Shown here in pieces: positions 12,301 through 33,196 of a stretch of DNA of 38,113 nt. Position 1 is the first letter of the stretch. Each line of letters opens with the position of its first letter. The notes beneath the pieces were generated by a model, which saw only the letters and a list, made by a program, of their open reading frames with translations, searched no databases and was not told the origin of the DNA. The translations under genes were made by a program, and so were the position numbers. Source of the stretch: Acidobacteriaceae bacterium (lineage in GTDB: Bacteria > Acidobacteriota > Terriglobia > Terriglobales > Acidobacteriaceae); assembly GCA_025934135.1 (NCBI GenBank), contig JAICYR010000012.1, positions 1 to 38,113 of the forward strand. The letters are read 5' to 3'.

Positions 12301-12348
12301 GCGGGGCGAAGAAAACCGGGTTGCAGCAAAACTTGAGAGGTGGATGAA

Positions 12349-17600: not shown

Positions 17601-18093
17601 TATAGAGCGCGAGCTCCTGGAAATTGCGGCCCTGGAGGGGGATGTTTTCAATCGCGTTGTTATCGAGCGTCGTCCCCAGCTCGGCGTTTTCGGTGTTGAG
17701 CAGGGGGGCCAGGTTTCCGGCCACGGAAACGTTCTGAGTGGAACCCGCCACCGCCAGTTTGGCATCGAACTTCGCGACCTGGCCGGATTCCAGCGCGAAG
17801 GGCCCGAGCGCCTGGGAACTGAACCCGGTGGCCTCAACCGTCACTCTGTAATTGCCAATTGTTAGAAAGCGGATACTGTACACGCCTTCCGCATTGGTTG
17901 TTGTGGACGTGGTGACGCCTGTCTGGATCGCGGTGGCCGTAACCTTGGCTCCGGGAATCACTGCGCCAGAGGCGTCCGTCACGGTGCCGGTGACGGCGCC
18001 GGTAATTGTCTGAGCAAAGCCAGAAATGCCCGCCACGCCGCATAGCGCGAGCAGACCTACGGCCAGATAGTAAACCCTCTTAGAAGTACGCAT
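14635..18093 (-). CDS. TonB-dependent receptor with N-terminal carboxypeptidase regulatory-like domain (Oar type)
   Basis: A 1152-residue outer-membrane protein. A Sec signal peptide (VYYLAVGLLALCGVAGISGF, ending near AQ) is followed by a carboxypeptidase regulatory-like domain (about residues 27-110: GAVTGTVTDASGAVIPGAKV), a plug domain (GRNFQELALYTPG, RTTIGGSVLSVNGNRAQANN) and a large beta-barrel ending in Phe (FQLSAKYSF), the usual outer-membrane assembly signal. Proteins of this kind are very common in acidobacteria and are thought to import oligosaccharides or other large ligands with TonB energy. I see no classical TonB box. ATG at 18093 is chosen because TAGGAGG precedes it closely; the upstream ATGs at 18111 and 18123 lack this. 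No SusD-like partner lies nearby. The promoter carries a LacI-type operator, so it is probably repressed without substrate. Confidence 0.93.
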   Translation of the reverse strand: MRTSKRVYYLAVGLLALCGVAGISGFAQTITGAVTGTVTDASGAVIPGAKVTATAIQTGVTTSTTTNAEGVYSIRFLTIGNYRVTVEATGFSSQALGPFALESGQVAKFDAKLAVAGSTQNVSVAGNLAPLLNTENAELGTTLDNNAIENIPLQGRNFQELALYTPGAISTNPASFSGSQAGERTTIGGSVLSVNGNRAQANNFMLNGIEINETVNNLVGYNPAPNGLAQVRVISANAPAEWGNVNGGAVVALLNNGTNQFHGSLYYFGHDAVFNANSWENNRNGIARHSATTSMFGATLGGPIFRDKLFFFGDYEGFRFHTAGEGALSVATAKMRQGDFSELLDPALMCRAGTTCTPNKLIQLYDSQNGYAPFAGNLNVPITNPAAIYLYAHPELYPLPNHAPTDGSPTSGDYHGQTTTKQYNDQFDARIDYNASDKNSFFGSYSQSTAGDSTSSPLAITFASPSTYPTKLFTFNYIRTFSPAVVNELRAGFFRVVWNQGAPVDTTGVFGMNGNQLLGIQGGNGAPGFSSQEFGLTNLGNRGIYSDIINNNYTYGDNLTWQKGLHLFKFGGQFIRYQQNIIYSGVAGASGYIGYNGAFSGDPLIKASTNVPNNKGYGLADFSMDHAMTMGRGPVAGYVGQRQWRDAFFAQDDWKVRPNLTINLGLRWEWDQPIYEVNNKESNVNLQTGELEIAGQDGNSRALYNPTWTNFMPRLGFSYNPVRRIVVRGGFGSTTYLEGTGANLRPIFNPPFQTTVEYTGSAPVNLANTGEFTTAETAFSAHSPDCDTLNNPSCAITIRAWRKNLRPSTINEFSLTTEYQLSNTASFQVGYVGEIGAHLIDANNGNQLSEPCWSGTTLLAYNNPKCFAVNKAPFYQLSGQSGFMRITESEAMMNYNALQATFRQRPLHGLQFTANYTYSKAMTNATGYYGSNLDVAGNTSYPEDPKHLDWEYGPAFTDATHNVNFNIIYQLPFGRGGMFGMNANRLADEIIGGWKVSMTGSAFTGIPMTIVSGTNTAGVHSAQQRALRYRHIKIHNRNINQWFGDDPSAQGCTNPGVDDGICAYGAAANGVIPNARPRSERTPGYQNYNAAIFKDFAITERQSFSLRAEAFNAFNIVSYGNPVQNIAASNFGEISSTRSDARNFQLSAKYSF

Positions 18094-18341
18094 CCTGCCT
18101 CCTAAATGCATCAACCTTCGCAACTTAGCCCGCCATCCGGCTCACGCGCATCGCTCAAGCCCTCCGGTCGGAATTTCAGATATATCTGGGACCCAAAGTC
18201 GTCTTTCCGAGCTACTGACGCTTTCGTCCAAGACATGCCGCTTGTCGGGGGAAATCCAATCCGAGTGACATAATCTACATGAATTACCAATATGTCGCTG
18301 AAAACAAACACTTATTGCCCATTCCCATTTTTCTCTAGTTA

Positions 18342-18496: not shown

Positions 18497-19492
18497 TCAA
18501 GAGCATCCGCACGACCTGCGGTAGACAAGCTGGCCCGGAAGCGCGATGATTTTTGGCTCAACGGGTTCAGTGCCCTCGATACGGCGGAAGAGCAGGTCAG
18601 TCGCATGCCTCATCATGTTTTCCGTGGGCTGGCGAACGACGGAGAGCGGCGGGTCAACCAATGAGGCCAGGTCAAAGTCGTCAAAGCCCAGCAGAGGCAG
18701 GCGCTCTGCGCGGGGCAACGCAAGTTCATCGAATGCGAGCAGCGTCGTCTGCGTCGCGCGATTGCTGAAGGAGAGAAGCGCGTCCGGCCTGTGGCTGCTT
18801 ACAAATGTGGAGGTCAGCGCATAACGGAGCTGTTCATGGTCGGGCGCCTGGATCAACGAGGTTTCCAGTTTTCTCTCCGTCATCACATCCACATAACCCT
18901 CCCAGCGCTGTTTAAAGCTGGCAATCTCGGGCCGGCTCACCACACACGCGATTCGCTTGTAGCCATGCCGCAACAAATGTTCCGTGGCGACGTGCGCGGC
19001 CTCGCGGTTGCGCAGTACAACCGAATCCATGGCGGGAGAGATATAGCGATCAATCGCTATGATGGGAGTGCCGGGCAAGGCCGCGGAAATTTCTTCAAAG
19101 TTGGAACCCGCCGCCGGGGCCAGAATCAGCCCATCCGCCCTGTATCGGCGAATGGTCGCGAGTTGAACGGCCTGCTGTTTGATTGACTCCTGATGGGTCA
19201 GCAGAATCACCGCGCATCCACGCTTGCCAGCCTCCTCCTCAATTAGCTGGACGGCGCGGCTGTAAAACATATTCGACACCTGCGGAATGATGGCGCCGAT
19301 AGTGTGCGTGCGACCGACCCGCAAAGCGCGCGCAGTCTCGTCGGGATAATAGCCGAGTTGCGCGATGGCCTCTGATACACGGATGGCCACATCCGGGCTG
19401 ACGCTGACGCCGCGAAGGTGTCTCGACACCGTCGAGGCCCCCACGCGGGCCAGCTTGGCCACGTCCGTTACTGTCGGCCGCTTCTTTACCAT
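18497..19492 (-). CDS. LacI/GalR-family transcriptional regulator
   Basis: A 331-residue repressor-like protein. The helix-turn-helix is at residues 7-27 (TVTDVAKLARVGASTVSRHL), the hinge is near residues 51-60 (DETARALRVG), and the periplasmic-binding-protein-like effector domain begins at HTIGAIIPQVSNMFYSRAVQ. The end, RRIEGTEPVEPKIIALPGQL, is typical of the family. Effectors of such proteins are usually mono- or oligosaccharides. The gene is transcribed from a region shared with the divergent sulfatase genes and lies directly upstream of the TonB receptor gene. Two or more matching operators in the locus (18342, 24655, possibly 24523) suggest it is the local regulator of receptor and beta-helix genes. 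Confidence 0.93.
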   Translation of the reverse strand: MVKKRPTVTDVAKLARVGASTVSRHLRGVSVSPDVAIRVSEAIAQLGYYPDETARALRVGRTHTIGAIIPQVSNMFYSRAVQLIEEEAGKRGCAVILLTHQESIKQQAVQLATIRRYRADGLILAPAAGSNFEEISAALPGTPIIAIDRYISPAMDSVVLRNREAAHVATEHLLRHGYKRIACVVSRPEIASFKQRWEGYVDVMTERKLETSLIQAPDHEQLRYALTSTFVSSHRPDALLSFSNRATQTTLLAFDELALPRAERLPLLGFDDFDLASLVDPPLSVVRQPTENMMRHATDLLFRRIEGTEPVEPKIIALPGQLVYRRSCGCS

Positions 19493-19759: not shown

Positions 19760-21229
19760 ATGAAAAGAAGAGACTTTCTGAAGACGACGACTGGCGCCAT
19801 GGCGGCGCTTGCACTCGGCAGTCCGGCCTCACTCCTGGCCCAGAATCATCACAAACGGCCCAATCTCCTGTTCATCACCGTGGATGACATGAATTGGAGC
19901 ATGCCGGGTTTTATGGGCGACAAGCTCGGCCTGACTCCCAACCTGGACAAACTGGCTGCGCAATCGCACCGCTTCGTGAATAACCGCACCACCGTCCCCA
20001 TTTGCCAGCCCTCGCGCGAGGCGATGATGACTGGCCGGGTTCCGCATCGCAGTGGAGGCCTGAGCTTCACTCCTATTTACGAAGGCATCCCCACCATGAC
20101 CACGGTCTTGAAGGATGCGGGATATTACACCGCCGCGATCCACAAGATTGAACACATGCAGCCGCCGAGCTGCTTCCCGTGGAACCATGAGTATCCAGGC
20201 AAAGACCGTGCCGTGACCGATTACTCCAACGGAGTTCGAGAGCAGATTGCCGCAGCACGCGCAGCCGGCAAGCCGTTCTTCATCAACTGCAATATCAACG
20301 ATCCGCACCGTCCTTTTTATGGAAGCCGAGGGGCAGCGGAAATGGACCACGATGACCAGGGACCTTACGCGGTCCCTCATCCTTTGACCGCGGATGATAT
20401 AACGACGGTGCCGGAAATACTGGAGCCATTGCCCGCAGTACGCAAGGAATACGCGCAGTACTGCAACGGCAATCAACGCGCGGACCGCAGCATTGGCGCC
20501 GTGCTGGATGTGCTGGCGCAATCGCCCGAGGCGGAAAACACCATCATCTTCTTTTCCGCCGACCATGGCATGCCATTTCCTTTCTCGAAGGCCACGGGAT
20601 ACGATTACGGCTCGCGCACACCAGCGTTGCTGTCATATCCGGGCATGGACGAGGCAAAGACCTTCGAGGAGCGCACCTGCAATATTGATTACATGCCGAC
20701 GCTGCTGGACCTGATGGGCGTGGAGAAGCCGGTCGGCATGGATGGCGTCTCCTGGAAGCCGCTGCTCAATGGCGGCAGCTACGCTGGGCCTGAGCTGCGC
20801 GTGGTCTGCGTGAACAGCCTTCACTCGAAAATTCATTACCCGCAACGCAGCGTTCAAGATGACCGCTATTCTTTAATGTTTATGCCGTGGTCGGACGGCA
20901 ATCTTGAGTTCCATGCGGAGTCCATGAGTGGTTTCACATGGAACGCGATGCTGGAAGCTGCACAGACTGACCAGAAAATCGCTGCGCGTTGTAACCAATA
21001 TCTTATCGGTCTTCCACTGGCCTTCTACGATCTGAAGACCGATCCAGGGCAGCGGCACAACCTGCTGGACAGGCCTGAGCACGCCGCGCGCATCGCGCAC
21101 TTTAAAGATGGTCTGACCGAATACATGGAACGGACCACCGACCCGCAACTCGGCAACTGGACCAACTATCTTGCAGGCAAGCCCATGCATGTGGAACAGC
21201 TTGCGAACGTGAGGCTTTACAGGAAGTAA
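19760..21229 (+). CDS. Tat-exported sulfatase, N-sulfoglucosamine sulfohydrolase-like
   Basis: A 489-residue type I sulfatase. The N-terminal MKRRDFLKTTTGAMAALALG is a twin-arginine signal. Metal ligands are in FITVDDMNW (Asp42-Asp43). The formylglycine signature is CQPSR at residues 82-86, so Cys82 must be oxidised by a maturase for activity. INDPHRPFYG, QYCNGNQRADRSIGAVLDVL and SADHGMPFPFSKATGYDYGSRTP resemble heparan N-sulfatase (SGSH, S1_8-like), including the Asp-His pair and the FPFSK segment. Subfamily likeness does not fix the substrate. It is first of three sulfatase genes on the same strand, 57 bases before the next. The ribosome site is weak. Confidence 0.88.
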   Translation: MKRRDFLKTTTGAMAALALGSPASLLAQNHHKRPNLLFITVDDMNWSMPGFMGDKLGLTPNLDKLAAQSHRFVNNRTTVPICQPSREAMMTGRVPHRSGGLSFTPIYEGIPTMTTVLKDAGYYTAAIHKIEHMQPPSCFPWNHEYPGKDRAVTDYSNGVREQIAAARAAGKPFFINCNINDPHRPFYGSRGAAEMDHDDQGPYAVPHPLTADDITTVPEILEPLPAVRKEYAQYCNGNQRADRSIGAVLDVLAQSPEAENTIIFFSADHGMPFPFSKATGYDYGSRTPALLSYPGMDEAKTFEERTCNIDYMPTLLDLMGVEKPVGMDGVSWKPLLNGGSYAGPELRVVCVNSLHSKIHYPQRSVQDDRYSLMFMPWSDGNLEFHAESMSGFTWNAMLEAAQTDQKIAARCNQYLIGLPLAFYDLKTDPGQRHNLLDRPEHAARIAHFKDGLTEYMERTTDPQLGNWTNYLAGKPMHVEQLANVRLYRK

Positions 21230-21286
21230 ACTTAGTCACGCTGCTGCCGCACTTTTGTCCCACAATGAATTCTGTGGAGGGAAACA

Positions 21287-22846
21287 ATGCCGATCTCTCG
21301 CCGAAATTTTCTGCAAGCCAGTGTCGCTGCCACTGCGGCAACGGCAACCACTGCGCTCGCTGAAAAGCTGCCCCATGGCAAGAAGAATGTTCTTTTTATT
21401 GCGGTGGACGACCAGAACACCCGGCTTGGCTGCTACGGCGATGTTGCGAAGACTCCGAACCTGGACGCTCTAGCGGCGCGCGGCACCCGCTTTGCGCGGT
21501 CCTATTGCCAGTTCCCTTTCTGCGGACCTTCGCGCGCTTCTTTGATGACCGGCGTTGGACCGGACACAACTCATATTTACGACCTTAACCACCATGTGCG
21601 TGACACCATGCCTGATGTAGTCACCGTGGGCCAGCTTTTCCGCAAAAACGGTTACTATTCGGCACGGGTCGGCAAAATTTTTCATGCCGATGTGCCGGGA
21701 GATATCGGCAAGGACGGAATGGACGACCCGCAGACCTGGGACTATGTCTACGATCCTCAAGGTGTGGACCACCCACAGCAGGAGCCGTTCGTCACCAACT
21801 TCACACCAAAACTAACGCGGCATCGCAAGAGTGATGGCGCGGTGCTGCTTGGCTCTACCATCAGCTACTATGAGTCTCCATCGCCGGACCGAGCCATGAC
21901 CGACAGCATCGGAGCGGACGAGATGATCCGTCTGCTGCGCAAGAACCGAAACAGGCCTTTCTTTCTTGCGTACGGCCTATACCGGCCGCACGTGCCCTGG
22001 ATCGTCCCGAAGAAGTACTTCGACATGTATCCGCTGGAGTCGATCAAGGCGCAGCCGTTCTCGCCCAGCGAGACTTCCATCGCACCTCCGTGCGCGTACA
22101 CATCGCACCCGCCAAACCTGGGCATGAGCGAGCTTGAGCAGCGCAAAGCGATTCGGGCTTACCACGCTTCAACCAGCTTTATGGATGCGCAGGTTGGGCG
22201 CGTACTCGATGAATTGAAGACGCTTGGTCTGGAAAAGAACACCATCGTCGTCTTCTGGGCCGATCATGGCTGGTGCCTTGGCGAGCATGGCCAGTGGGAA
22301 AAGCAGAACCTTTTCGAGCCGGCCGCGCATGTGCCGTTTATCATCGCGGGCTCAGGCAAAAAAAGCCAGGTTTGCGAACGCACCACCGAGCATCTGGATA
22401 TTTATCCCACGCTGGTCGAATTATGCGGACTGAAAAATGCGCCCGCACATCTGCACGGCAGCAGCGTGGTTCCGCTGTTAAGCAATGCCAAGGCGCCATG
22501 GGATAAGCCGGCGGTCACGCAGCAAACACGGCCAACCATCCCCGATAATCCTACGATCTTTGGATACAGCTTGCGCACTGAACGCTATCGCTACACGAGC
22601 TGGCAGGGGACCACTGTCGGCGAAGAGCTCTACGACTACCAAACCGACCCGCGCGAGTTGGTCAATCTAGCGGAAGCGCCGGAAGCTCAGACATTGAAAA
22701 ACCGCCTGAAGCAGCAGCTCAGCGAGATCACCGCGGCGCGAGGCCGAAAGATTGCGCTGGGCGAGAAGGTCGCATCTCCGGCACACGATGGCAGCGGCCC
22801 GCACACGAAGCCGGCGGGTAATAAATTGGCAACAGCAAGACCATAG
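21287..22846 (+). CDS. Tat-exported sulfatase, iduronate-2-sulfatase-like
   Basis: A 519-residue type I sulfatase with a twin-arginine signal (ISRRNFLQASVAATAATAT). Metal-binding Asp residues lie in FIAVDDQNTRLGCYG, and the formylglycine cysteine is Cys79 in CGPSR. The sequence around it (FPFCGPSRASLMTG), the following NHHVRDTMPDVVTVGQLF-like region and ADHGWCLGEHGQWEKQNLFE are typical of the iduronate-2-sulfatase group (S1_7-like), which is abundant in planctomycetes and marine bacteroidetes. In bacteria this group acts on many sulfated sugars. A clear GGAGGG ribosome site precedes ATG 21287. It probably forms an operon with its neighbours; the next gene begins 16 bases after its stop. Confidence 0.9.
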   Translation: MPISRRNFLQASVAATAATATTALAEKLPHGKKNVLFIAVDDQNTRLGCYGDVAKTPNLDALAARGTRFARSYCQFPFCGPSRASLMTGVGPDTTHIYDLNHHVRDTMPDVVTVGQLFRKNGYYSARVGKIFHADVPGDIGKDGMDDPQTWDYVYDPQGVDHPQQEPFVTNFTPKLTRHRKSDGAVLLGSTISYYESPSPDRAMTDSIGADEMIRLLRKNRNRPFFLAYGLYRPHVPWIVPKKYFDMYPLESIKAQPFSPSETSIAPPCAYTSHPPNLGMSELEQRKAIRAYHASTSFMDAQVGRVLDELKTLGLEKNTIVVFWADHGWCLGEHGQWEKQNLFEPAAHVPFIIAGSGKKSQVCERTTEHLDIYPTLVELCGLKNAPAHLHGSSVVPLLSNAKAPWDKPAVTQQTRPTIPDNPTIFGYSLRTERYRYTSWQGTTVGEELYDYQTDPRELVNLAEAPEAQTLKNRLKQQLSEITAARGRKIALGEKVASPAHDGSGPHTKPAGNKLATARP

Positions 22847-22862
22847 AACAAGGAGCGGCGGT

Positions 22863-24470
22863 ATGGACCGTAGAAGCTTTATAGGAATGTCTGGTGCGGG
22901 TGTACTCGGCGCAATGGCGGGCGGCGCAATCAATTTGAATGGACAAGAGACCGCCCCGGCGGAACTTGGACTGCCTGAGGCGCAAGACCGTGGCTCACTT
23001 CGCAAGCGGCCCAACATCGTGCTCTTTATGCCGGACGAGATGCGCGCCGACGCGCTGGCCTGCTACGGAAACAGCGTGACCAAGACGCCGAATTTTGACC
23101 GCCTCGCCACCGAGGGAACACGCTTCGCGAATTGCCATGTGCAGTTTCCAGTGTGCGGCGCATCGCGCTGCAGCCTGCTGACTGGATGGCCCACCAGCGT
23201 GCGCGGCCACCGCAGTCTCTACTATTTTCTGCGTCCGGATGAGCCGAATCTCTTCCGGTACCTCAAGCAATCGGGGTATGACGTTTTCTGGTTCGGCAAA
23301 AATGACGCCCTCGCGGCACAAAGCTTCTACGACAGCGTCACCTATTGGGACACAGGCTCTTCGCATGAGCGGCCGACGCACTCCATTACTCCGGACATTA
23401 CGAGCATGCTGCATGGAAAAGGCGGGGACCGCCGCGACGATCTGGATTACTCAATCGTGCGGTCAGCCATCAAAATCATCGAGCGGAAGGAATCTGACCG
23501 GCCATTCTGTCTCTTTCTGCCCATGCAGGGTTCGCATCCTCCATACACCACGCCCGCCGATTTCTACAGCATGTACAGCCCGGATTCAGTTGGGAAGCTG
23601 GTCCCGCCGGATCTCCCCAAAAAGCCGGATTACCAGAAAGCAATGCGACGGCACTACAACCTGGACCGCATGACCGATCACCAGCTTCGTGAAGTTCGCG
23701 CCGTGTACTACGGAAAGGTGAGCTTCAGCGATTGGCTGATGGGTGAAGTGCTGGAGGCGCTGGAAAAGAATGGACGCGAAAAAGATACTGCCGTCATGCT
23801 TTTCTCAGACCATGGCGATTACGCGGGTGACTATGGACTAACAGAGAAGTGGCCCAGCGGGCTTGAGGATTGTCTTACGCATGTGCCGCTGATTATGAAA
23901 GCGCCGGGCGGCAAGAGCGGCCACACCGTCAACGAGATGACGGAGCTATATGACGTGATGGCGACTTGCCTTGGTCTCGCCGGGGTGCAGGCGCAACACA
24001 CGCATTTTGCACGCGATCTCGCTCCACAGCTCAACGGAGAAGCCGGTGATGCGGGCCGCGCCGCATTCGCCGAGGGCGGCTACAACGTTTACGAACCCCA
24101 GTGCTTCGAGCCTGTGTCGGCTGTGAGCAACGAATACACGCCGAAGGTCACGCTTGAAAATAAAATGCCCGAAACCGTGAGCCGCTCGGCGATGGTGCGC
24201 ACGCGGACCCATAAGCTCATTTGGCGCTCGCAGGGACAAAAAGAACTCTATGACATCACTGCGGACCCGGGCCTTACTCGCAACCTCATCGATGAATCCT
24301 CATCAGTGGCGATAAAGGCCAATCTGCAGATTCGTCTGATGGAACACTTCATCAATACGTCCGGAGTTGCGCCCATGGACAAGGATTCACGTTCGAGCCC
24401 GCCGTTCTACCCTACGCGTTCGGACATCCCGACGACCGGCTGGCAGGAGCAAATTCTGGACCAAGTCTGA
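22863..24470 (+). CDS. Tat-exported sulfatase, arylsulfatase-like
   Basis: A 535-residue type I sulfatase. ATG at 22863 is chosen because it opens a twin-arginine signal (MDRRSFIGMSGAGVLGAMAG) and follows AAGGAG by eight bases; the frame itself is open from 22752 inside the preceding gene. Metal ligands lie in LFMPDEMRADALACYG. The formylglycine signature is CGASR at residues 98-102, the alternative form with Ala in place of Pro. MLFSDHGDYAGDYGLTEKWP carries the second metal-binding Asp-His pair. Its subgroup differs from both upstream sulfatases, so the three enzymes likely remove sulfate from different positions or sugars. It is the last gene before the 354-base regulatory gap. Confidence 0.89.
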   Translation: MDRRSFIGMSGAGVLGAMAGGAINLNGQETAPAELGLPEAQDRGSLRKRPNIVLFMPDEMRADALACYGNSVTKTPNFDRLATEGTRFANCHVQFPVCGASRCSLLTGWPTSVRGHRSLYYFLRPDEPNLFRYLKQSGYDVFWFGKNDALAAQSFYDSVTYWDTGSSHERPTHSITPDITSMLHGKGGDRRDDLDYSIVRSAIKIIERKESDRPFCLFLPMQGSHPPYTTPADFYSMYSPDSVGKLVPPDLPKKPDYQKAMRRHYNLDRMTDHQLREVRAVYYGKVSFSDWLMGEVLEALEKNGREKDTAVMLFSDHGDYAGDYGLTEKWPSGLEDCLTHVPLIMKAPGGKSGHTVNEMTELYDVMATCLGLAGVQAQHTHFARDLAPQLNGEAGDAGRAAFAEGGYNVYEPQCFEPVSAVSNEYTPKVTLENKMPETVSRSAMVRTRTHKLIWRSQGQKELYDITADPGLTRNLIDESSSVAIKANLQIRLMEHFINTSGVAPMDKDSRSSPPFYPTRSDIPTTGWQEQILDQV

Positions 24471-24824: not shown

Positions 24825-26144
24825 ATGAATAAGACTGATGTATCTCGAAGGAAATTCCTCGGCAAGTCCAGCGCCGCTGTGCTGGCCCTGCCATTGGCTG
24901 CGGCAATCCCCGCGGCCATTGACGCGACGTCGCCCAAAGCAGTCGAGGCGGCAACCGCGGAAGACGACCGGCAGTTGATTCCCAACCGGGTCCTGCCGAC
25001 ACGAACGATTGGCTCAACGGTTGCACAGTTCACGATTCCTCTTCCAACTGATGGAACATCCGATGCCTCGGCGTCCATTCAAAGTGCGATCGATAATTTG
25101 CCCGCGGGCGGCGGAATTGTCCGCATTCCCTGGAAAACCATACCCGGAAAGAACATGTGCGTTTACATGCTCGACACCACACGCGATACCGATGGCAATA
25201 CCTATTATGCAATTTGGATGAAGTCCAACGTGCGGCTCGAGTGCGAACCTGGAGTGAAGTTGCAGGCCATGACTGTCACCCAAAGTCCTGTCGTTACTGA
25301 CAATGCGCACATGATCCAATGTCGCAATGTCAATAACGTTGAAATTGTGAACTGCTGGCTGGTTGGGGAGCGCTACACCCACGTCTATTCCGGACTCGAC
25401 GCCCCGAACTCAGACCAGTACTGCAGTGGAATCTCCCTTGCGGGAGTAACTGGCCTCACCATCCGGGCCACGCAAGTCTCGAACTGCACTGGAGACGGCA
25501 TCAGCATCAGCGCCACCTCAACCAATCCCTCCTCCGATGTCGTCCTGGAGGATGTGCTTTCCACGGGAAATCGGACGCGGGGCCTGGGCATCTCCTCCGG
25601 CAATTCCATTTCCGTCTACGATTCCAAATTCGCCAATACCGGCGGATTGAATGAGATGGATGGTATTCACATTGAACCGCATGCAACGTCGCAGACGTCT
25701 GTGAGCAATGTCACGATCGAGAATTGCGTCGTCACGGGCAATGCCGGCTGCGGTATTCATTTGAACGCGAATGGAGCCAATATCACCAACGTGAATGTGA
25801 AGGACTGCCTGGTCAGCTACAACTACTGGTATGGATTCTATTCGCAAATGACCGGCGCCGGCGCTGTTGATACGGGCTCGTTTTACGGCAATGCCTTTTT
25901 CCAGAACGGCAATCAGGGGCTGGCATTTACTGGCACCACTTCAAACTATATTGTCGGCTCCAACGTTCAAGGCAATGGCAACGCCTTTGGTGACAACCAG
26001 AACCTTTACAACGCCATCAAGTACCCCAACCAGACCGAGACAAGCACTTATGGCTATGTTTCCGGTACTGACATGACCGTGAGCGCAGCCTCGCTATCGG
26101 CTGGCACTGTCATCCGCTGGAACAGGTATTACACCAATCCCTAG
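24825..26144 (+). CDS. Tat-exported right-handed beta-helix protein 1, putative polysaccharide lyase/hydrolase
   Basis: A 439-residue exported protein, first of four tandem paralogs. The twin-arginine signal is VSRRKFLGKSSAAVLALPLA. The mature part starts with the pectate-lyase-3-like motif GTSDASASIQSAIDNLPAGG, in which a buried first helix coil is formed, and continues with repeated NVEIVNCW-, NVTIENCVVTGN- and NVNVKDCLVSYN-type coils, the mark of a right-handed parallel beta-helix. Conserved in all four copies are GER/DRxxHxxSG, GDGI and DGI(D/H)IEP-like or DGIDIE segments, which are candidate active-site residues. I cannot assign a CAZy family; a lyase, a GH28-like hydrolase or a binding protein are all possible. 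GGAGG precedes ATG. Expression is probably under the LacI-type operator at 24655. Confidence 0.78.
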   Translation: MNKTDVSRRKFLGKSSAAVLALPLAAAIPAAIDATSPKAVEAATAEDDRQLIPNRVLPTRTIGSTVAQFTIPLPTDGTSDASASIQSAIDNLPAGGGIVRIPWKTIPGKNMCVYMLDTTRDTDGNTYYAIWMKSNVRLECEPGVKLQAMTVTQSPVVTDNAHMIQCRNVNNVEIVNCWLVGERYTHVYSGLDAPNSDQYCSGISLAGVTGLTIRATQVSNCTGDGISISATSTNPSSDVVLEDVLSTGNRTRGLGISSGNSISVYDSKFANTGGLNEMDGIHIEPHATSQTSVSNVTIENCVVTGNAGCGIHLNANGANITNVNVKDCLVSYNYWYGFYSQMTGAGAVDTGSFYGNAFFQNGNQGLAFTGTTSNYIVGSNVQGNGNAFGDNQNLYNAIKYPNQTETSTYGYVSGTDMTVSAASLSAGTVIRWNRYYTNP

Positions 26145-26150
26145 CTCTTG

Positions 26151-26197
26151 TTCTGAGCCAATTCAACCATCACCTTGAGCCGCCCGCATGGCGGACC
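26151..26197 (+). repeat. Duplicated intergenic segment, copy A
   Basis: The spacer after beta-helix gene 1 resembles the spacer after gene 2 at 27562-27613. Shared blocks in order are TTCT-GA-GCCA, ATCA, a CCT/CTT-GAG motif, CGCC-GC-TG and CGGACC. Such likeness in non-coding sequence supports a recent tandem duplication. In this copy the hairpin is reduced to a 5-bp CCGCC/GGCGG stem. Confidence 0.55.
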
Positions 26198-26232
26198 ACA
26201 ACATAACCAGCAACTTGATGGAGATTGCAATG

Positions 26233-27552
26233 ATGAGCAAAAGTGAAATTTCTCGAAGGAAGTTTCTTGGTCGAAGCGGCACCGCTGCTTTGGCCCTGCC
26301 CTTGGCCGCGGCCATTCCCGCTGCCATCGAAGCCACGTCCCCTAAAGCAGTCAAGGCGGCAAGCATGGAAGACACCATGCAGTTGCTTCCCAACCGGGTC
26401 CTGACAGCTCGAACGATCGGTTCAACGACCGTGACCATTCCTATCGCAAATCTACCCTCGAATGGAACATCCGACGCTTCAGGGGCCATTCAAAGCGAGA
26501 TAAACAATTTGCCCACGGGCGGCGGAACCATCATCATTCCATGGCAGAATACGGGCGGGAACCAGTGCGTTTACATGCTCAATACGCAGGCCCGAACCGA
26601 TGCCGGCGGTAATGATTGCGCAATTTTCCTGAACTCTAACGTCCGACTCCAGTGCAAACCTGGAGTGAAGTTGCAGGCCATGACGGCCAACACGGGCTCC
26701 ACCAAGACAGATCGGGGGTACATGATCAGTTGTAATGGAATCCAGGACGTCGAAATTGCGAATTGCTGGCTGGTTGGGGAGCGTTATACCCACGTCTATT
26801 CCACCATCGGCACAGGGACGGACGAGCATTACTACGGAATTTCGATCACGAATGTAACCGGCATGAATATCCGGGCCACGCAAATCTCGGATTTCACCGG
26901 AGACGGCATATGTCTGGGCGGCACACCCCACGATATCGTCCTCTGCGATGTGCTTTCCACCGGAAACCGAAGGCAGGCCATCAGCATCACCTCCGGCGAA
27001 AACATATACCTCTACGACTCCGAATTCAGCTATACCAGTGGCACGCTGCCCATGGATGGCATTGATATTGAGCCGCAGGGAGGCGCGCACGTGAACGGCG
27101 TCACAATCGAGAACTGCATCATCAAGGGCAATGGCGGGTGTGGCATCCAGTTAAACGCACAAGGGACCAATATTTCCAACGTAAATGTGATGAACTGTCT
27201 GGTCAGCTACAACGAATGGACTGGGTTCATTGCTCAAATGGGCACCACAAAATCTGGAGCGGTCGGCTCAATCACCACTGGGTCGATTTATGGCAGCGCC
27301 TTTTTCCAGAATGGCCAGGAGGGTGTGTCCCTTAGCGGCACCACTTCAAACTATACCGTCGGCGCACGCGATGAATATGGCAACTACACCAATTCATTCG
27401 GCAATAACAAGCTCCGCCTCCCCAATGACATCCAATACCCAAACCAGACTGAGGCGGACACTCAGGGCTATGTATCCGGCAATGACATGAATGTGAGTTC
27501 CAACTCGCTGTCATCAGGCACCGTCGTTCGCTGGAACAGCTATTACTCCTAG
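26233..27552 (+). CDS. Tat-exported right-handed beta-helix protein 2 (paralog)
   Basis: A 439-residue paralog of the preceding gene, closest to it among the four: the signal peptide (ISRRKFLGRSGTAALALPLA), the AIPAAIEATSPKAVKAAS linker, GTSDASGAIQSEINNLPTGG and the CGIQLNAQGTNISNVNVMNC coils are nearly collinear with copy 1. It keeps LVGERYTHVYS, FTGDGICLGG and PMDGIDIEPQG. The start at ATG 26233 gives the same MSKSEISRRKFLG opening as copy 3; an adjacent ATG at 26230 also fits the GGAGA ribosome site, while the frame's first ATG at 26188 would add an unneeded extension. The spacer after it resembles the spacer before it, which indicates duplication of gene plus flank. Confidence 0.78.
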   Translation: MSKSEISRRKFLGRSGTAALALPLAAAIPAAIEATSPKAVKAASMEDTMQLLPNRVLTARTIGSTTVTIPIANLPSNGTSDASGAIQSEINNLPTGGGTIIIPWQNTGGNQCVYMLNTQARTDAGGNDCAIFLNSNVRLQCKPGVKLQAMTANTGSTKTDRGYMISCNGIQDVEIANCWLVGERYTHVYSTIGTGTDEHYYGISITNVTGMNIRATQISDFTGDGICLGGTPHDIVLCDVLSTGNRRQAISITSGENIYLYDSEFSYTSGTLPMDGIDIEPQGGAHVNGVTIENCIIKGNGGCGIQLNAQGTNISNVNVMNCLVSYNEWTGFIAQMGTTKSGAVGSITTGSIYGSAFFQNGQEGVSLSGTTSNYTVGARDEYGNYTNSFGNNKLRLPNDIQYPNQTEADTQGYVSGNDMNVSSNSLSSGTVVRWNSYYS

Positions 27553-27561
27553 CAGGCCCTG

Positions 27562-27613
27562 TTCTTGAAGCCAGAAAAGTCATCATCAACCTGGAGTCGC
27601 CTGCGTGCGGACC
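27562..27613 (+). repeat. Duplicated intergenic segment, copy B
   Basis: The counterpart of 26151-26197, after beta-helix gene 2. Here the same block forms the left arm of a strong terminator-like hairpin that copy A lacks. Confidence 0.55.
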
Positions 27614-27641
27614 CAAATCCTCTACGCAGGCGGCTTTCATT
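27595..27641 (+). terminator. Intrinsic terminator-like hairpin after beta-helix gene 2
   Basis: CGCCTGCGT (27598-27606) pairs with ACGCAGGCG (27624-27632); the stem extends outward by a G-U, a G-C and an A-T pair. The loop is 17 bases and TTTCATTTT follows. It may end or attenuate transcription between paralogs 2 and 3. Confidence 0.65.
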
Positions 27642-27689
27642 TTCCACTTCCGGAATTCCGGTTAACTCAATTTTATTGGAGACCCAAAG

Positions 27690-29072
27690 ATGAGCAAAAG
27701 TGAGATATCTCGTAGAAAATTCCTTGGTGGAACCGGGTCCCTGGCCCTCGCGCTCCCCCTGGCTTCGCTTCCCGCCGCGGCGCAGATCGGAAGCGTGCCG
27801 CAAAACTTTAGCGGACAAAGAAGCCACCCGGCGCTGATCCCCTACAGGGAATTGCCCGTTCGCCAGCGCGGCGAAACCGTCATTATGGTTGACCCGCCCA
27901 CCGATGGGGTCTCCGACTGCGCCCCCGCCATTCAGGCCGCGATCGACTCACTGCCGGAAGACGGCGGCACTGTCCTGGTACGTTACCACCAGACGCAAAG
28001 CGGCGACAGAGACTGCGTTTATATGATCGACACCGGTGCCCGTGTCTGGACTGGCCCCAAAAAGCCCCACTACGGGATTATGTTGCGTTCCAACATGCTT
28101 CTCGACTTCGAACCTGGGGTTCAGTTGCAGATAACACCGAACAATTTTGCTGTGTCGTATGCCGTTTGGGTCAACCAGAGCCACGACGTCGAGATTGCCA
28201 ATATGAATCTCATCGGAGAACGCTTTGCTCATACCATGTCCGGTTCCGGAACAGACGAGTGGGGGTTTGGACTTTTCGTTCATGGATGCAACGGCATTAC
28301 TCTCCGGTCATCGTACATTGCAAACTTTGAGGGAGATGGCATCAGTATGGCCTATGCAGGCAATCCGCCGACTCTCCCCACCGACATTGTCGTCTGGGAT
28401 ACCGTTTGCACGGGCAACCGGAGGCAGGCTGTAAGCATTGTCGCCGGCAATGGCATTTACCTGTTCGATTCCGAATTCAGCAATACGCACGGAACAGCCC
28501 CTGCTGACGGCATTGATATTGAAGTGGAATGGATAGAAGCGCCCATCAGCAATATCACGATCGACAACTGCATCATCCGAAACAATCAGGCAAATGCCGT
28601 CGAACTGAATTCAAGCGGCGGCATGTCCATAACCAACGTGAACATTACCAACAGCGTGCTCGCCGGCAACTATTCCGGCGTGTACGCAGGTGTACGCGGC
28701 AAGGGCAGCGTTTTGGATACCGCGACCATTTATGGCAATGCCATCTACCAGAATCGAGCCGCAGGCATATATCTGCGCGGCGCGCCAACCCACTTCACCA
28801 TTGGAGGGTCTCAGTCCTGCGACCCACACAACAATTCTTTCGCCAATAACCTGGTGACTGGTTCCCACAAATATATTTATCCCATCTCAGCCCAACAACA
28901 GGCGCAAGGCTACAACGCCGGTTCGGACATGAGCTTTTCCGACACGGCGCTCGCACCCGGCGCCAACAACGTTGTAGGCTGGAACTTTTTCTACTCTCCT
29001 AACGCATCGATCACGGGAGCACAGCAACACCCATGCAATATGCAAGAACCCGCATCGAGACAGGGTTCTTAG
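27690..29072 (+). CDS. Tat-exported right-handed beta-helix protein 3 (paralog)
   Basis: A 460-residue paralog with twin-arginine signal ISRRKFLGGTGSLALALPLA. GVSDCAPAIQAAIDSLPEDGG starts the helix and is followed by repeated coils (DVEIANMNLIGERFAHTMSG, NITIDNCIIRNNQANAVELN, NVNITNSVLAGNYSGVYAGV). It keeps GTDEWGFG, FEGDGISM, NRRQAVSIVAGNGIYLFDSE and PADGIDIE. Copies 3 and 4 share features not seen in copies 1 and 2, such as RGETVI/RGATVI before the first coil, a pro-region with EL-P-RQRG-type residues and GGSQS/GGSSS before the end, so they form a second subgroup. The ribosome site GGAG lies eight bases before ATG. A terminator follows the stop. Confidence 0.78.
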   Translation: MSKSEISRRKFLGGTGSLALALPLASLPAAAQIGSVPQNFSGQRSHPALIPYRELPVRQRGETVIMVDPPTDGVSDCAPAIQAAIDSLPEDGGTVLVRYHQTQSGDRDCVYMIDTGARVWTGPKKPHYGIMLRSNMLLDFEPGVQLQITPNNFAVSYAVWVNQSHDVEIANMNLIGERFAHTMSGSGTDEWGFGLFVHGCNGITLRSSYIANFEGDGISMAYAGNPPTLPTDIVVWDTVCTGNRRQAVSIVAGNGIYLFDSEFSNTHGTAPADGIDIEVEWIEAPISNITIDNCIIRNNQANAVELNSSGGMSITNVNITNSVLAGNYSGVYAGVRGKGSVLDTATIYGNAIYQNRAAGIYLRGAPTHFTIGGSQSCDPHNNSFANNLVTGSHKYIYPISAQQQAQGYNAGSDMSFSDTALAPGANNVVGWNFFYSPNASITGAQQHPCNMQEPASRQGS

Positions 29073-29097
29073 TAGTCCTCTTTGACCATTGCCGAAG

Positions 29098-29127
29098 ACA
29101 GCCGGGCTTGGCGAGCCGGCTGTTTTT
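29098..29127 (+). terminator. Intrinsic terminator after beta-helix gene 3
   Basis: ACAGCCGG (29098-29105) pairs with CCGGCTGT (29116-29123) around a ten-base loop, followed by TTTTC. Gene 4 therefore probably needs readthrough or its own promoter. Confidence 0.8.
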
Positions 29128-29147
29128 CATAACAATCCGACGCAACA

Positions 29148-29175
29148 GCGCCCTGTGGCAATGCTGGCAGGGCGC
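29148..29175 (+). other. Inverted repeat upstream of beta-helix gene 4
   Basis: GCGCCCTG (29148-29155) and CAGGGCGC (29168-29175) form a perfect 8-bp stem with a 12-base loop, 27 bases before ATG 29203. No T-run follows. It could be an operator or a leader hairpin for the last paralog. Confidence 0.4.
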
Positions 29176-29202
29176 AACTTAAAAAGGCAGAAAACTTATC
29201 TT

Positions 29203-30588
29203 ATGAGCATCAGCAAACTATCGCGGAGAAACTTTCTCGGCGGCACCAGTTCCCTTGCCATTGCCCTCCCCTTCGCCTCCATTCCCGCCATCGCGGAAAA
29301 GAAGCACATCAGGAATTCGAGCCTCACGCCTGAGCTGCCGTCGAGGAAGCTTCCCGCTCGCAAGCGCGGCGCAACTGTCATCACGGTTGATCTGCCGATT
29401 GACGGCGTTTCGGATTGCTCGAAGGCAATCAACGATGCAATCAACGCTCTGCCGGGGGACGGTGGAACCGTCTGGGTGCCTTACCAGAAGACTGGCGGCT
29501 CTAAAGACTGCATTTACAAAATAAACACCACCGCCAATACCTACACCTCTCCAAAAAGACCGAATCACGGTCAGCCTTATGGAATCAAACTGCGATCGAA
29601 CATGCTGCTCCAGCTTGAGCCCGGCGTTCAGCTAAGGGCTATGCCAACGAATGTGGCGCGGGCTTACGTGCTCTTCGCTTCCGATGTTCACGATATCGAG
29701 ATTGCGAATGGAGCCATTATCGGCGACCGCCATGAGCATACCAATTCCGGAAAGGGCACCGACGAATGGGGCCATGGTATGCAGATCCTTGGAGTCAGGC
29801 AAGCTACCATTCGTTCGATTTATATATCGGATTGCGAAGGCGATGGCATTTGTGTTGGCCGCGGCCCATCATCTCGCACCAACGATCTGATCATCTGCGA
29901 TGTAATCAGCACTCGCAATCGCAGACAGGCCCTAAGCATCACCAATGGTGACAATATCTCGGTCTTCGATTCCGAGTTCAGCTATACGCATGGAACAGCG
30001 CCGCAGGATGGTATAGACATTGAACCCGATGGGACGGGACAGGTAAATAACCTGACCATCGACAACTGCATTCTGCGAGGCAACGAGGCTTCCGGAATTG
30101 AAGTAAACGCGAGCCATGGCTCAAGCATTCGCAACCTGACTATCACGAACTGCGTGATGCGCGACAACGTCTACTCCGGCTTCTTTACCGTTCAAAAGGG
30201 GACGGCGGTTCTGGACAATGGCGTGCTGTACGGAAATGCGTTCTATCAGAACCGCTACATTGCTGTGCAACTCGCCGGCAAAACCACAAAGTTCACAATT
30301 GGCGGTTCCAGTTCCACTGATTCTCGGAACAACCTGTTCGCCAATAACGAAATCAGCGCTTCACGCCAGGTCATTTACCCAATCACCGCCCGCCGCCCTA
30401 AGAAGGGTTATATCGCCGGGCCAGACATGGCCTTTCGTGTTGCATCCCTCGCACCCGACGCCAACAACGTCGTCGCGTGGAATTACTTTTCCTCCCCGGA
30501 AGCACCGCCCACTCAACCAGAAAAGCACTCCGGCGCCGACAGCAAATCGCCCGCGGAGGGGCACAACGATCCTCGCCGCACGCGCTAG
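29203..30588 (+). CDS. Tat-exported right-handed beta-helix protein 4 (paralog)
   Basis: A 461-residue paralog whose twin-arginine signal is LSRRNFLGGTSSLAIALPFA. ATG 29203 is chosen because it opens this signal; the frame is open from 29089, but that stretch includes the terminator of the previous gene. The helix begins GVSDCSKAINDAINALPGDG and continues with DIEIANGAIIGDRHEHTNSG, GTDEWGHGMQ, CEGDGICVGR, NRRQALSITNGDNISVFDSE and PQDGIDIEPDG, all aligned with copies 1-3. The C-terminus adds a Pro- and Lys-rich tail (PTQPEKHSGADSKSPAEGHN) of about 25 residues absent from copies 1 and 2. The ribosome site is poor. Function as for the other paralogs, unknown. Confidence 0.77.
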   Translation: MSISKLSRRNFLGGTSSLAIALPFASIPAIAEKKHIRNSSLTPELPSRKLPARKRGATVITVDLPIDGVSDCSKAINDAINALPGDGGTVWVPYQKTGGSKDCIYKINTTANTYTSPKRPNHGQPYGIKLRSNMLLQLEPGVQLRAMPTNVARAYVLFASDVHDIEIANGAIIGDRHEHTNSGKGTDEWGHGMQILGVRQATIRSIYISDCEGDGICVGRGPSSRTNDLIICDVISTRNRRQALSITNGDNISVFDSEFSYTHGTAPQDGIDIEPDGTGQVNNLTIDNCILRGNEASGIEVNASHGSSIRNLTITNCVMRDNVYSGFFTVQKGTAVLDNGVLYGNAFYQNRYIAVQLAGKTTKFTIGGSSSTDSRNNLFANNEISASRQVIYPITARRPKKGYIAGPDMAFRVASLAPDANNVVAWNYFSSPEAPPTQPEKHSGADSKSPAEGHNDPRRTR

Positions 30589-30836: not shown

Positions 30837-31097
30837 CTACCGGCCGTAATGCGCGGCGTTCTTTCCCGCGTAATCGGCCCACTTCTCCGGCAGATCATCT
30901 GCCGCGAAGATCGCCGAAACCGGGCACACCGGGACGCAGGCGCCGCAATCGATGCACTCCACCGGGTCGATGAACAGTTGGTCGCTGCCTTCGAAGTCGC
31001 CTTCGTCTTTCTTGGGATGAATGCAGTCCACCGGGCACGCGTCCACGCAGGCGGAGTCTTTTGTGCCGATGCAGGGTTCAGCGATTACGTAAGCCAT
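30837..31097 (-). CDS. fdxA: 7Fe (3Fe-4S/4Fe-4S) ferredoxin, FdxA-type
   Basis: An 86-residue soluble electron carrier. Cysteines at 9, 17 and 58 fit the 3Fe-4S cluster and those at 21, 48, 51 and 54 fit the 4Fe-4S cluster of Azotobacter ferredoxin I-type proteins; Cys25 is extra. Sequence landmarks are CIGTKDSACVDACPVDCIHP and CIDCGACVPVCPVSAI. The C-terminus (LPEKWADYAGKNAAHYGR) is typical of this group. The ribosome site AGAGG stands seven bases before ATG. The gene lies alone on the minus strand between glycan genes and has its own terminator, so it is probably an unrelated housekeeping redox gene. An attractive but unsupported idea is that it feeds electrons to a sulfatase-maturing radical SAM enzyme elsewhere. 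Confidence 0.92.
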   Translation of the reverse strand: MAYVIAEPCIGTKDSACVDACPVDCIHPKKDEGDFEGSDQLFIDPVECIDCGACVPVCPVSAIFAADDLPEKWADYAGKNAAHYGR

Positions 31098-31273
31098 GGC
31101 AAATCCTCTTTTGGGGTCTGTTGAGATTTAGACAACACAATTGTACCGCGAGAGCGGGCAAGGCAAAAATAGTTGAAAAATCGGTCGAGGCGGGCCCGCT
31201 CCGACTGGAAGGCGGACTGGACAGCAGCGACGCAGCAACGTTTACTCGTAACGACACCTTTTCAGGAGTTTCC

Positions 31274-33196
31274 ATGCGCTTAAATCTCCGCAAACCTCTC
31301 GTGTCCATCGCAGCCCTCGGACTTGCCCTCACCGCCACCGCGCAGTCCAGGCCACCCGTCACGCTCGACATTCACGTCAACCAGGTCAAGGCTCAGGCCA
31401 GCCCCATGCTTCACGGCCTCATGACTGAGGAGATCAACTACTCCTACGACGGCGGCCTTTACGGCGAGCTGGTCCGCAACCGCGAGTTCCATCCGAACGA
31501 CTCATGGCTGACCGCCATCGAGGGCTGGAAGTCGGTCAATCATGGCGGGGCTGAGTCCTCCTTTGTTGAGGACAAGACCACCGGCCCCAGCCAGGCCATT
31601 TCTTACAGCGCCAAGGTCACTGTCGAAAGCGCCAGCGCCTCCGCGCGCGCGGGCCTTGCGAATGAAGGCTACTGGGGCATTCCCGTGCGGCCCTCCACCA
31701 CCTATAAAGGATCGTTCTACGCCAAGGCGAGTGGCGAAAGCGGCCCCATTCACGTGGCGCTGGTGAACGACAACACCGGAGTTGAGGCGGCGCACGCCGA
31801 CGTTCCCGCGCTCACCAGCGACTGGAAGCAGTACCATTTCACCCTCACGACCAACGGCGCGGTGCGGCCGTCGTCGCTGTATCGGCTGGAAGTGACCGCC
31901 GCGCGTCCGGGAACCTTCTGGTTCAGCATGGTCTCGCTCTTTCCGCCGACCTACAACAATCGGCCGCATGGCAGCCGCATTGACCTGATGGAAAAAATGG
32001 CCGCTTTGCACCCCACGTTCCTGCGCTTCCCCGGCGGAAATTATCTGGAAGGCAACACCATCAAGGAGCGCTTCCAGTGGAAGCAGACCATTGGCCCCGA
32101 CGTTGACCGGCCCACGCACATGGGCCCCTGGGGCTATCGCTCGTCCGATGGAATGGGCCTGCTCGAATTTCTGGACTGGTGCGAGGACCTGCACATGCAG
32201 CCGTTGCTTGCCGTCTACGCCGGCTACTCGCTGCACGGCGAACACGTGGATCCCGGCCCGGACCTCGAGCCTTACGTGAACAATGCGCTGGATGAAATCG
32301 AGTACGTTACCGGAGACACCTCCACCAAATGGGGCGCCGAACGCGCGAAAGACGGCCATCCGAAGCCCTTCGATCTGAAGTATGTCGAGATCGGCAATGA
32401 GGACTGGTTCGACAAGTCAGGCAGCTACGATGGACGCTACGCTCAGTTCTATAAAACCATTAAAGCGAAGTATCCGGACCTTCAACTGATCGCCACCGCT
32501 CCGATTAAGAGCATGAAGCCCGACGTGCTTGACGAGCACTTTTACAAGTCAGCGGACGAGTTCTACGCCGATGTCCACCATTACGACAAGACCGACCGCA
32601 ACGGGCCGAAGATTTTCGTCGGCGAGTGGGCCACGATGGAAGGAAACCCCACCCCCGACTTTGGCGCGGCGCTCGGCGACGCGGCATGGATGACCGGGAT
32701 GGAGCGCAACAGCGACATCGTCATTATGTCCAGCTACGCTCCGATGTTCGTCAACGTTAGCCCCGGAGCCATGCAGTGGCACCCCGACCTCATCGGCTAC
32801 AACGCCATGGAGAGCTACGGCTCGCCCAGCTACTACGCGCAGGTGATGTTCGGGAAGTACCACGGCGACGAGATTCCGCAGACGGACGAGTTGGGCAGCA
32901 ATTCTCGTTTCTTCTATTCTGTAACGCGCGACTCGAAGAACAGCGAGATGTATATCAAGCTGGTCAACGCGGGCTCCGCGCCGCAGCCGGTCGACATCAA
33001 GCTGGACGGCGCAACCGGCGTGGCGCCCATTGCCAACGTGGTGACGCTGAGCGCGAAAACCGAGGCGGCGACCAACTCCATCGACCACCCGAAGAACATT
33101 ATCCCGGTCGAGTCGCGCTTCGAGCGGGCCTCCGGAAACTTCACCTACACGCTTCCGCCGTACTCGATTCAGGTGCTGCGGGTGAGAACCAAATAG
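31274..33196 (+). CDS. Secreted GH51 alpha-L-arabinofuranosidase
   Basis: A 640-residue exported glycosidase with a Sec signal (LVSIAALGLALTATAQS). ATG 31274 follows AGGAG and opens that signal; the frame is open from 31061 but that part overlaps the ferredoxin gene. An N-terminal carbohydrate-binding-like beta-sandwich (about 75-215) is inserted after the first strand (LMTEEINYSYDGGLYGELVRN). The catalytic barrel carries FLRFPGGNYLEG, the acid/base Glu376 in VEIGNEDW, and the nucleophile Glu451 in FVGEWATMEGN, matching GH51. A C-terminal beta domain completes the protein. It releases terminal arabinofuranosyl residues from arabinan, arabinoxylan or arabinogalactan. This is the only soluble exported enzyme of the locus without a twin-arginine signal. 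Confidence 0.92.
   Translation: MRLNLRKPLVSIAALGLALTATAQSRPPVTLDIHVNQVKAQASPMLHGLMTEEINYSYDGGLYGELVRNREFHPNDSWLTAIEGWKSVNHGGAESSFVEDKTTGPSQAISYSAKVTVESASASARAGLANEGYWGIPVRPSTTYKGSFYAKASGESGPIHVALVNDNTGVEAAHADVPALTSDWKQYHFTLTTNGAVRPSSLYRLEVTAARPGTFWFSMVSLFPPTYNNRPHGSRIDLMEKMAALHPTFLRFPGGNYLEGNTIKERFQWKQTIGPDVDRPTHMGPWGYRSSDGMGLLEFLDWCEDLHMQPLLAVYAGYSLHGEHVDPGPDLEPYVNNALDEIEYVTGDTSTKWGAERAKDGHPKPFDLKYVEIGNEDWFDKSGSYDGRYAQFYKTIKAKYPDLQLIATAPIKSMKPDVLDEHFYKSADEFYADVHHYDKTDRNGPKIFVGEWATMEGNPTPDFGAALGDAAWMTGMERNSDIVIMSSYAPMFVNVSPGAMQWHPDLIGYNAMESYGSPSYYAQVMFGKYHGDEIPQTDELGSNSRFFYSVTRDSKNSEMYIKLVNAGSAPQPVDIKLDGATGVAPIANVVTLSAKTEAATNSIDHPKNIIPVESRFERASGNFTYTLPPYSIQVLRVRTK

Follow-up and report, generated by a model that had tools for sequence, protein, structure and literature searches.

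Beta-helix depolymerases are a known kind of protein. WceF of Pantoea stewartii is a bacterial, tail-spike-like beta-helix that acts as an endo-acting stewartan hydrolase, is lectin-like and clusters on its glycan (PMC7949094), RbmB of Vibrio cholerae is a VPS lyase (PMC11637428), and Tyr149, Asp152 and His154 have been named as the catalytic residues of AlgE (PMC7385640). The tail fibre gp22 of Bacteroides phage crAss001 (PDB 7qoj) has been described structurally only (PMC10172136).

The present analysis concerns four tandem genes for exported beta-helix proteins in a window of 38,113 nucleotides, which is the whole stretch of DNA analysed, from the genome of an Acidobacteriaceae bacterium (contig JAICYR010000012.1). 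Acidobacteriaceae are abundant in soils, and to our knowledge their polysaccharide-degrading enzymes are poorly characterised.

Over the coils that carry the signature described below, crAss001 gp22 and the tail spikes of phi674, Vibrio K208 and Bacillus phages form one sequence family with the window proteins, and these phage members have in common the motif run EW/EQ..GDG..NRRQG..GTxP..GxDxEP. The phage tail spikes are longer, with extra N- and C-terminal parts, whereas each window protein consists of a twin-arginine (Tat) leader and a single helix domain; the leader stands directly before the helix domain, and an extra N-terminal virion-attachment region is absent. The likeness of WceF to the window proteins is by kind of protein, not by a shown sequence relation. 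It is encoded in an exopolysaccharide (EPS) cluster, as are some distant members of the family, whereas the window genes lie outside an EPS cluster. RbmB (PDB 9ozd) is alike in fold (Z 33) at 12% identity, and it gave no match to the family profile at E <=1. The A-modules of AlgE4, AlgE6 and AlgE7 are like copy 4 in fold and N-terminal cap, but the AlgE catalytic residues and R-modules are absent in the window proteins. GH28 polygalacturonases have a right-handed beta-helix alike (Z 28-33), and a GH28 gene adjoins the beta-helix copy of T. albidus; their NTD, DD, GHG and RIK motif set is, however, missing from all four window copies, PF00295 gave no match and the profile comparison was weak. 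What is new in this locus is the family, its signature and a first copy in which that signature is degraded.

The tandem array

The array consists of four intact open frames on the forward strand: copy 1 (24825-26144, 439 aa), copy 2 (26230-27552, 440 aa), copy 3 (27690-29072, 460 aa) and copy 4 (29203-30588, 461 aa). For copy 2 the better start is 26230 or 26233, and copy 4 is better started at 29203; these positions mark the onset of the SRRKFLG and SRRNFLG leaders. All four N-termini carry SRR(K/N)FLG followed by a hydrophobic stretch, and against the NCBIfam Tat model (cut-off 16.7) copies 1 and 2 score above the cut-off (17.9 and 19.7), copy 3 at it (16.7) and copy 4 just below it (15.2). 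Pairwise identity is about 60% between copies 1 and 2, 52% between copies 3 and 4, and 37-45% for the remaining pairs. When the whole genome was searched by BLAST with copy 2, only the four copies matched, with E down to 1e-153. The differences by codon position, together with the NG86 values (dN 0.28 and dS 0.78 for copies 1 and 2; dN 0.39 and dS 2.5, the latter near saturation, for copies 3 and 4), indicate that the copies have been retained as coding genes. A previous sequence-only reading of this DNA had described four tandem paralogs with Tat-type leaders at this place, and both descriptions stand.

Family signature and predicted fold

The generic Beta_helix model is the only Pfam match common to all four copies. 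Additional Pfam matches were all marginal: NosD in copies 3 and 4, and rhamnogalacturonase-type and DUF4957 models in copy 4. PF12708 (Pect-lyase_RHGA_epim, gathering 27) reached 28.5 bits over part of copy 4 and did not match copies 1-3, and NCBIfam gave nothing beyond the Tat leader except sub-threshold matches. The earlier statement that the proteins have no clear family therefore holds as far as a specific Pfam or NCBIfam family is concerned, but a clear family does exist, and it is un-named and widespread. Its signature is G(D/E)Rx2H...xEW...GDG...NRRQG...TxGTxPxxGIDIEP, and the motifs G(D/E)Rx2H, xE(W), GDG, (N)RRQ and GTxPxxGxDxEP recur across about 34 sequences of phage, Priestia, EPS-cluster and acidobacterial groups. 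No characterised member was found in the libraries searched, and no paper on the signature came up in our literature search; the family is a plausible candidate for a new CAZy family.

PHROG 2234 (a tail spike) and PHROG 14824 matched copy 3 (E 2.8e-7 and 3.8e-16) and copy 4 (E 2.1e-12 and 1.5e-18), with no match for copies 1 and 2. The wide family profile reached the crAss001 gp22 tail fibre in hmmsearch (E 1.1e-37), and tblastn reached tail spikes of Corynebacterium phage phi674 and of Bacillus and Vibrio phages (E 6e-26 to about 1e-13). In the sequence search of the PDB, crAss001 gp22 was the sole match along the signature coils, the others being mostly matches to the shared N-terminal cap. 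The wider family profile was required to reach these PDB relatives; phmmer with a single copy found nothing in the PDB and the four-row profile gave weak matches only. A scan of viral contigs with query A1 gave no relative.

The signature is intact in copies 3 and 4, and in copy 2 except for EH in place of EW; copy 1 keeps part of it only. Among the motifs that the sequence-only reading had listed as kept by all copies, GDGI is invariant and DGI(D/H)IE is correct, but copy 1 is the sole copy with H and breaks the wider signature. In a ten-row alignment, copy 1 is the sole dissenter at E198Q, R251T, Q252R, S255G, E268K, S270A, T275L, P277E and D282H, with SDQ for TDE, NRTR for NRRQ and GGLNEMDGIHIE for GTAPxDGIDIE. 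The core of these positions is conserved even in most phage members. The stretch of lost signature lies at 25410-25680 on the forward strand (in copy 1 numbering, E198Q at 25416, R251T at 25575 and D282H at 25668). In a relative-rate test, copy 1 was faster with some outgroups (chi-square 12.8, 7.5, 3.9 and 3.9), not with all (1.2). Since signature residues have been lost while the open frame is conserved, copy 1 probably acts as a binding paralog or as one of altered specificity, with catalysis lost or specificity changed, as judged from its sequence. The possibility of a pseudogene was rejected because the frame is intact, dN/dS is well below 1 and the fold model is normal.

The beta-helix fold that had been read from the letters is borne out by AF2, which models copy 4 (pTM 0.79, mean pLDDT 77, core mostly >90) as a right-handed beta-helix and copy 1 (pTM 0.81) in the same fold, each as a single chain. 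All four copies are predicted to be helices of this kind. The signature of copy 4 is encoded at 29722-30027 on the forward strand and comprises G174/R176/H179, D187-E188-W189, G213-D214-G215, N239-R240-R241-Q242 and T262..P267-G270-D272-E274-P275. In the strand register of the model, these motifs fall on the same strand, or in the loop before it, over four consecutive coils. Because of this common position, the conserved acidic, basic and amide residues form one strip of four stacked coils, by an argument from coil register and not from distances, in agreement with the clustering of conserved residues that the sequence-only reading had asked of a predicted model.

Structural alignment of copy 4 with VIA-align placed AlgE4, AlgE6 and AlgE7 first (Z 37-38, 1.8-2.0 A over about 302 residues, 18-20% identity), followed, with Z near 33, by the polysaccharide lyase RbmB, by phi29 gp12 and by GH28 enzymes. 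In profile alignment, the signature face is the face that bears the AlgE catalytic residues. A manual register with the AlgE DPH, one coil off, was dropped; two profile alignments agree on another. An equation of GDG/NRRQGLSI with the GDD/GHGLSIG coils of GH28 was likewise dropped; hhalign, with a thin GH28 set, put the GH28 NTD against DGIDIE, and we claim no GH28 register.

Relatives and gene neighbourhoods

The distribution of close members is patchy: of 398 genomes in the taxonomic family, 4 have them, and one of these is the genome of the window itself. T. albidus DSM 26559 and genome G683 have one copy each, and MAG SZAS-4 has four intact copies and one truncated copy. In the tree, copies 1 and 2 are sisters, and their lineage also takes in the copies of T. 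albidus and G683 and three of those of SZAS-4. Copy 3 falls together with a further SZAS-4 copy, and copy 4 branches off close to it. This topology shows two ancient lineages, older than the split between these species, and later growth of the array by local duplication. The truncated fifth copy of SZAS-4 (L006:11607-12302), without leader or N-terminal coils, is an instance of copy birth and decay within the tandem.

Distant relatives were found by profile in another family of the phylum, adjoining O-antigen ligase, sugar transferase and aminotransferase genes, in EPS clusters of Caballeronia, in Priestia, and in the tail spikes of Corynebacterium, Bacillus, Vibrio and Bacteroides phages. Genomes of genus g39 in family f24 (L040, L041, L042, L046 and others) have 1-4 distant members each, often inside EPS clusters, and in some cases the member forms the terminal domain of a protein 650-1330 residues long. 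A diverged member in genome G492 (L073:9139-10461), with HRQ for RRQ, is flanked by a GH92 gene and an MGH1-like glycosidase gene and has GH20 in its vicinity, which is a different glycan context.

Upstream of the array, a GH31 glycosidase (12340-14550) is encoded on the forward strand, and an outer-membrane beta-barrel of the OMP_b-brl_4 type (14635-18123) and a LacI-type regulator (18497-19492) on the reverse strand. Three sulfatases follow on the forward strand at 19760-24470 (19760-21229, 21287-22846 and 22752-24470). Downstream of the array is a GH51-like alpha-L-arabinofuranosidase (31061-33196, forward strand), with the ASD1 domain, Alpha-L-AF_C and CBM_4_9. A DUF5695 protein with a twin-arginine-like leader (9550-12300, forward strand; PF18951, 4e-56), whose role is judged from position only, adjoins the GH31 gene and may belong to one utilisation locus with it.

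The family keeps company with one clade of barrels. The window barrel shares 64-66% identity with those that stand next to the single beta-helix genes in T. albidus and G683, far more than the background level of about 30% for the numerous barrels that these genomes encode. In both genomes the gene order is barrel, AXE1-like esterase and beta-helix, followed in T. albidus by GH28. The window's genome has a second barrel of the clade on contig C170 (73% identical), whose neighbours are two AXE1-like double esterases, a glucuronyl-esterase/AXE1 protein and a GH28 protein 61% identical to that of T. albidus. This C170 locus (L117, G000:C170:18000-37900) also contains a heparinase II/III-like protein, a ROK regulator and one sulfatase, and has the appearance of a pectin-type utilisation locus. 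A further barrel of the clade in genome G179 (59%) has no adjoining beta-helix. The locus context of the array is not universal, as the SZAS-4 array adjoins the nuo operon and no carbohydrate genes were seen nearby.

Proposed function and transcription of the array

As the sequence-only reading had supposed, a polysaccharide-active role of the family is likely, by analogy with its phage tail-spike and EPS-cluster relatives. Since the barrel clade, AXE1-like esterases and GH28 are lasting partners, the neighbours point most likely to an acetylated, uronate-rich, arabinose-bearing glycan of pectic type as the substrate. We lean towards an explanation of the whole in which secreted beta-helices of this un-named family work on such a pectic-type substrate, copies 2-4 as endo-acting depolymerases and copy 1 as a binder; the cleavage, the linkage, the substrate and the reaction, be it that of a hydrolase, a lyase or an epimerase, are what we infer. 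Copies 2-4, once exported, would cleave an extracellular polysaccharide at internal sites of its backbone, and E188 and D214 (and D272/E274) with the RRQ motif would line a groove along the stacked coils. Oligosaccharides would pass inward through the outer-membrane barrel, GH31 and the arabinofuranosidase would trim the imported fragments, and esterases (here on contig C170), perhaps with the sulfatases, would strip substituents, while copy 1 would bind or position the substrate.

Three other readings were weighed against this explanation. The sequence-only reading had taken the proteins as endo-lyases or hydrolases tuned to different ways in which one sulfated polysaccharide is sulfated, and the three sulfatases would be their partners. 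The sulfatase genes immediately precede the array in the same orientation, and a C-x-P/A-S-R-type site can be read in each; the arabinofuranosidase lies downstream, and one more sulfatase is near the second barrel on C170. The three array-side genes are, however, peculiar to the window: no sulfatase was found next to the beta-helix genes of T. albidus, G683 and SZAS-4, despite the five-copy array of the last, and sulfatases are common in the window's genome, where 10 of 13 matches lie elsewhere. We thus regard the proposed tuning as weak and unlikely. WceF-like trimming or remodelling of the bacterium's own exopolysaccharide, instead of feeding on foreign glycans, would have WceF as its precedent (PMC7949094) and would suit both the SZAS-4 array, which has no catabolic neighbours, and the distant members that, in two phyla, are encoded in EPS clusters together with a ligase/polymerase, a flippase and glycosyltransferases. 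Among the window genes scanned, however, no EPS synthesis genes were found, and the neighbours are catabolic (GH31 and GH51-type here; esterases and GH28 in relatives) together with an importer-type barrel, so that we consider this role rather unlikely.

The third reading takes the proteins as C5-epimerases or epimerase/lyases, AlgE-like in chemistry as in fold. The AlgE A-modules are the top structural match (Z 37-38 versus 33 for others), the AlgE profile comparison gives E 1.4e-13, and the GxR and DxW positions are in common. No R-module follows the helix, however, and in the two profile alignments, for which the AlgE4 sequence was checked against 2pyg, Tyr149, Asp152 and His154 of AlgE4 align with D214, C217 and G219 of copy 4. 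Since the AlgE catalytic residues are missing at the aligned positions, AlgE chemistry is not carried over in its known form, and epimerases of this type are very unlikely.

The pectic-type depolymerase explanation can be extended to the family at large, and we offer this extension tentatively, as possible but somewhat short of probable. The signature family would be a new polysaccharide-cleaving family with an active site of its own (E188, D214, RRQ and D272/E274), with which phages breach capsules, bacteria process their own EPS, and Acidobacteriaceae, with tandem expansion and one non-catalytic copy, eat plant glycans. One signature unites tail spikes of phages with proteins from EPS clusters and with acidobacterial proteins that look catabolic, and its candidate catalytic residues are open to mutation. 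The array provides natural paralogs, one with a broken motif, for probing the role of each residue.

The spacers on the forward strand after copy 1 (26145-26229) and copy 2 (27553-27689) are related, as had been noticed from the letters: their local alignment score is 21, compared with a shuffle mean of 8.7, and none of 1000 shuffles scored as high. The same test gave no relatedness for other spacer pairs. In the window, a promoter scan was no better than chance level, no RNA family was matched and defence systems gave no match. A strong hairpin with a T run at the boundary of copies 3 and 4 (29094-29127, forward strand; -20.1 kcal/mol, z -2.8), with a scan match at 29105-29117, is likely an intrinsic terminator, and this suggests that copy 4 is a transcription unit of its own, the array being split into copies 1-3 and copy 4.
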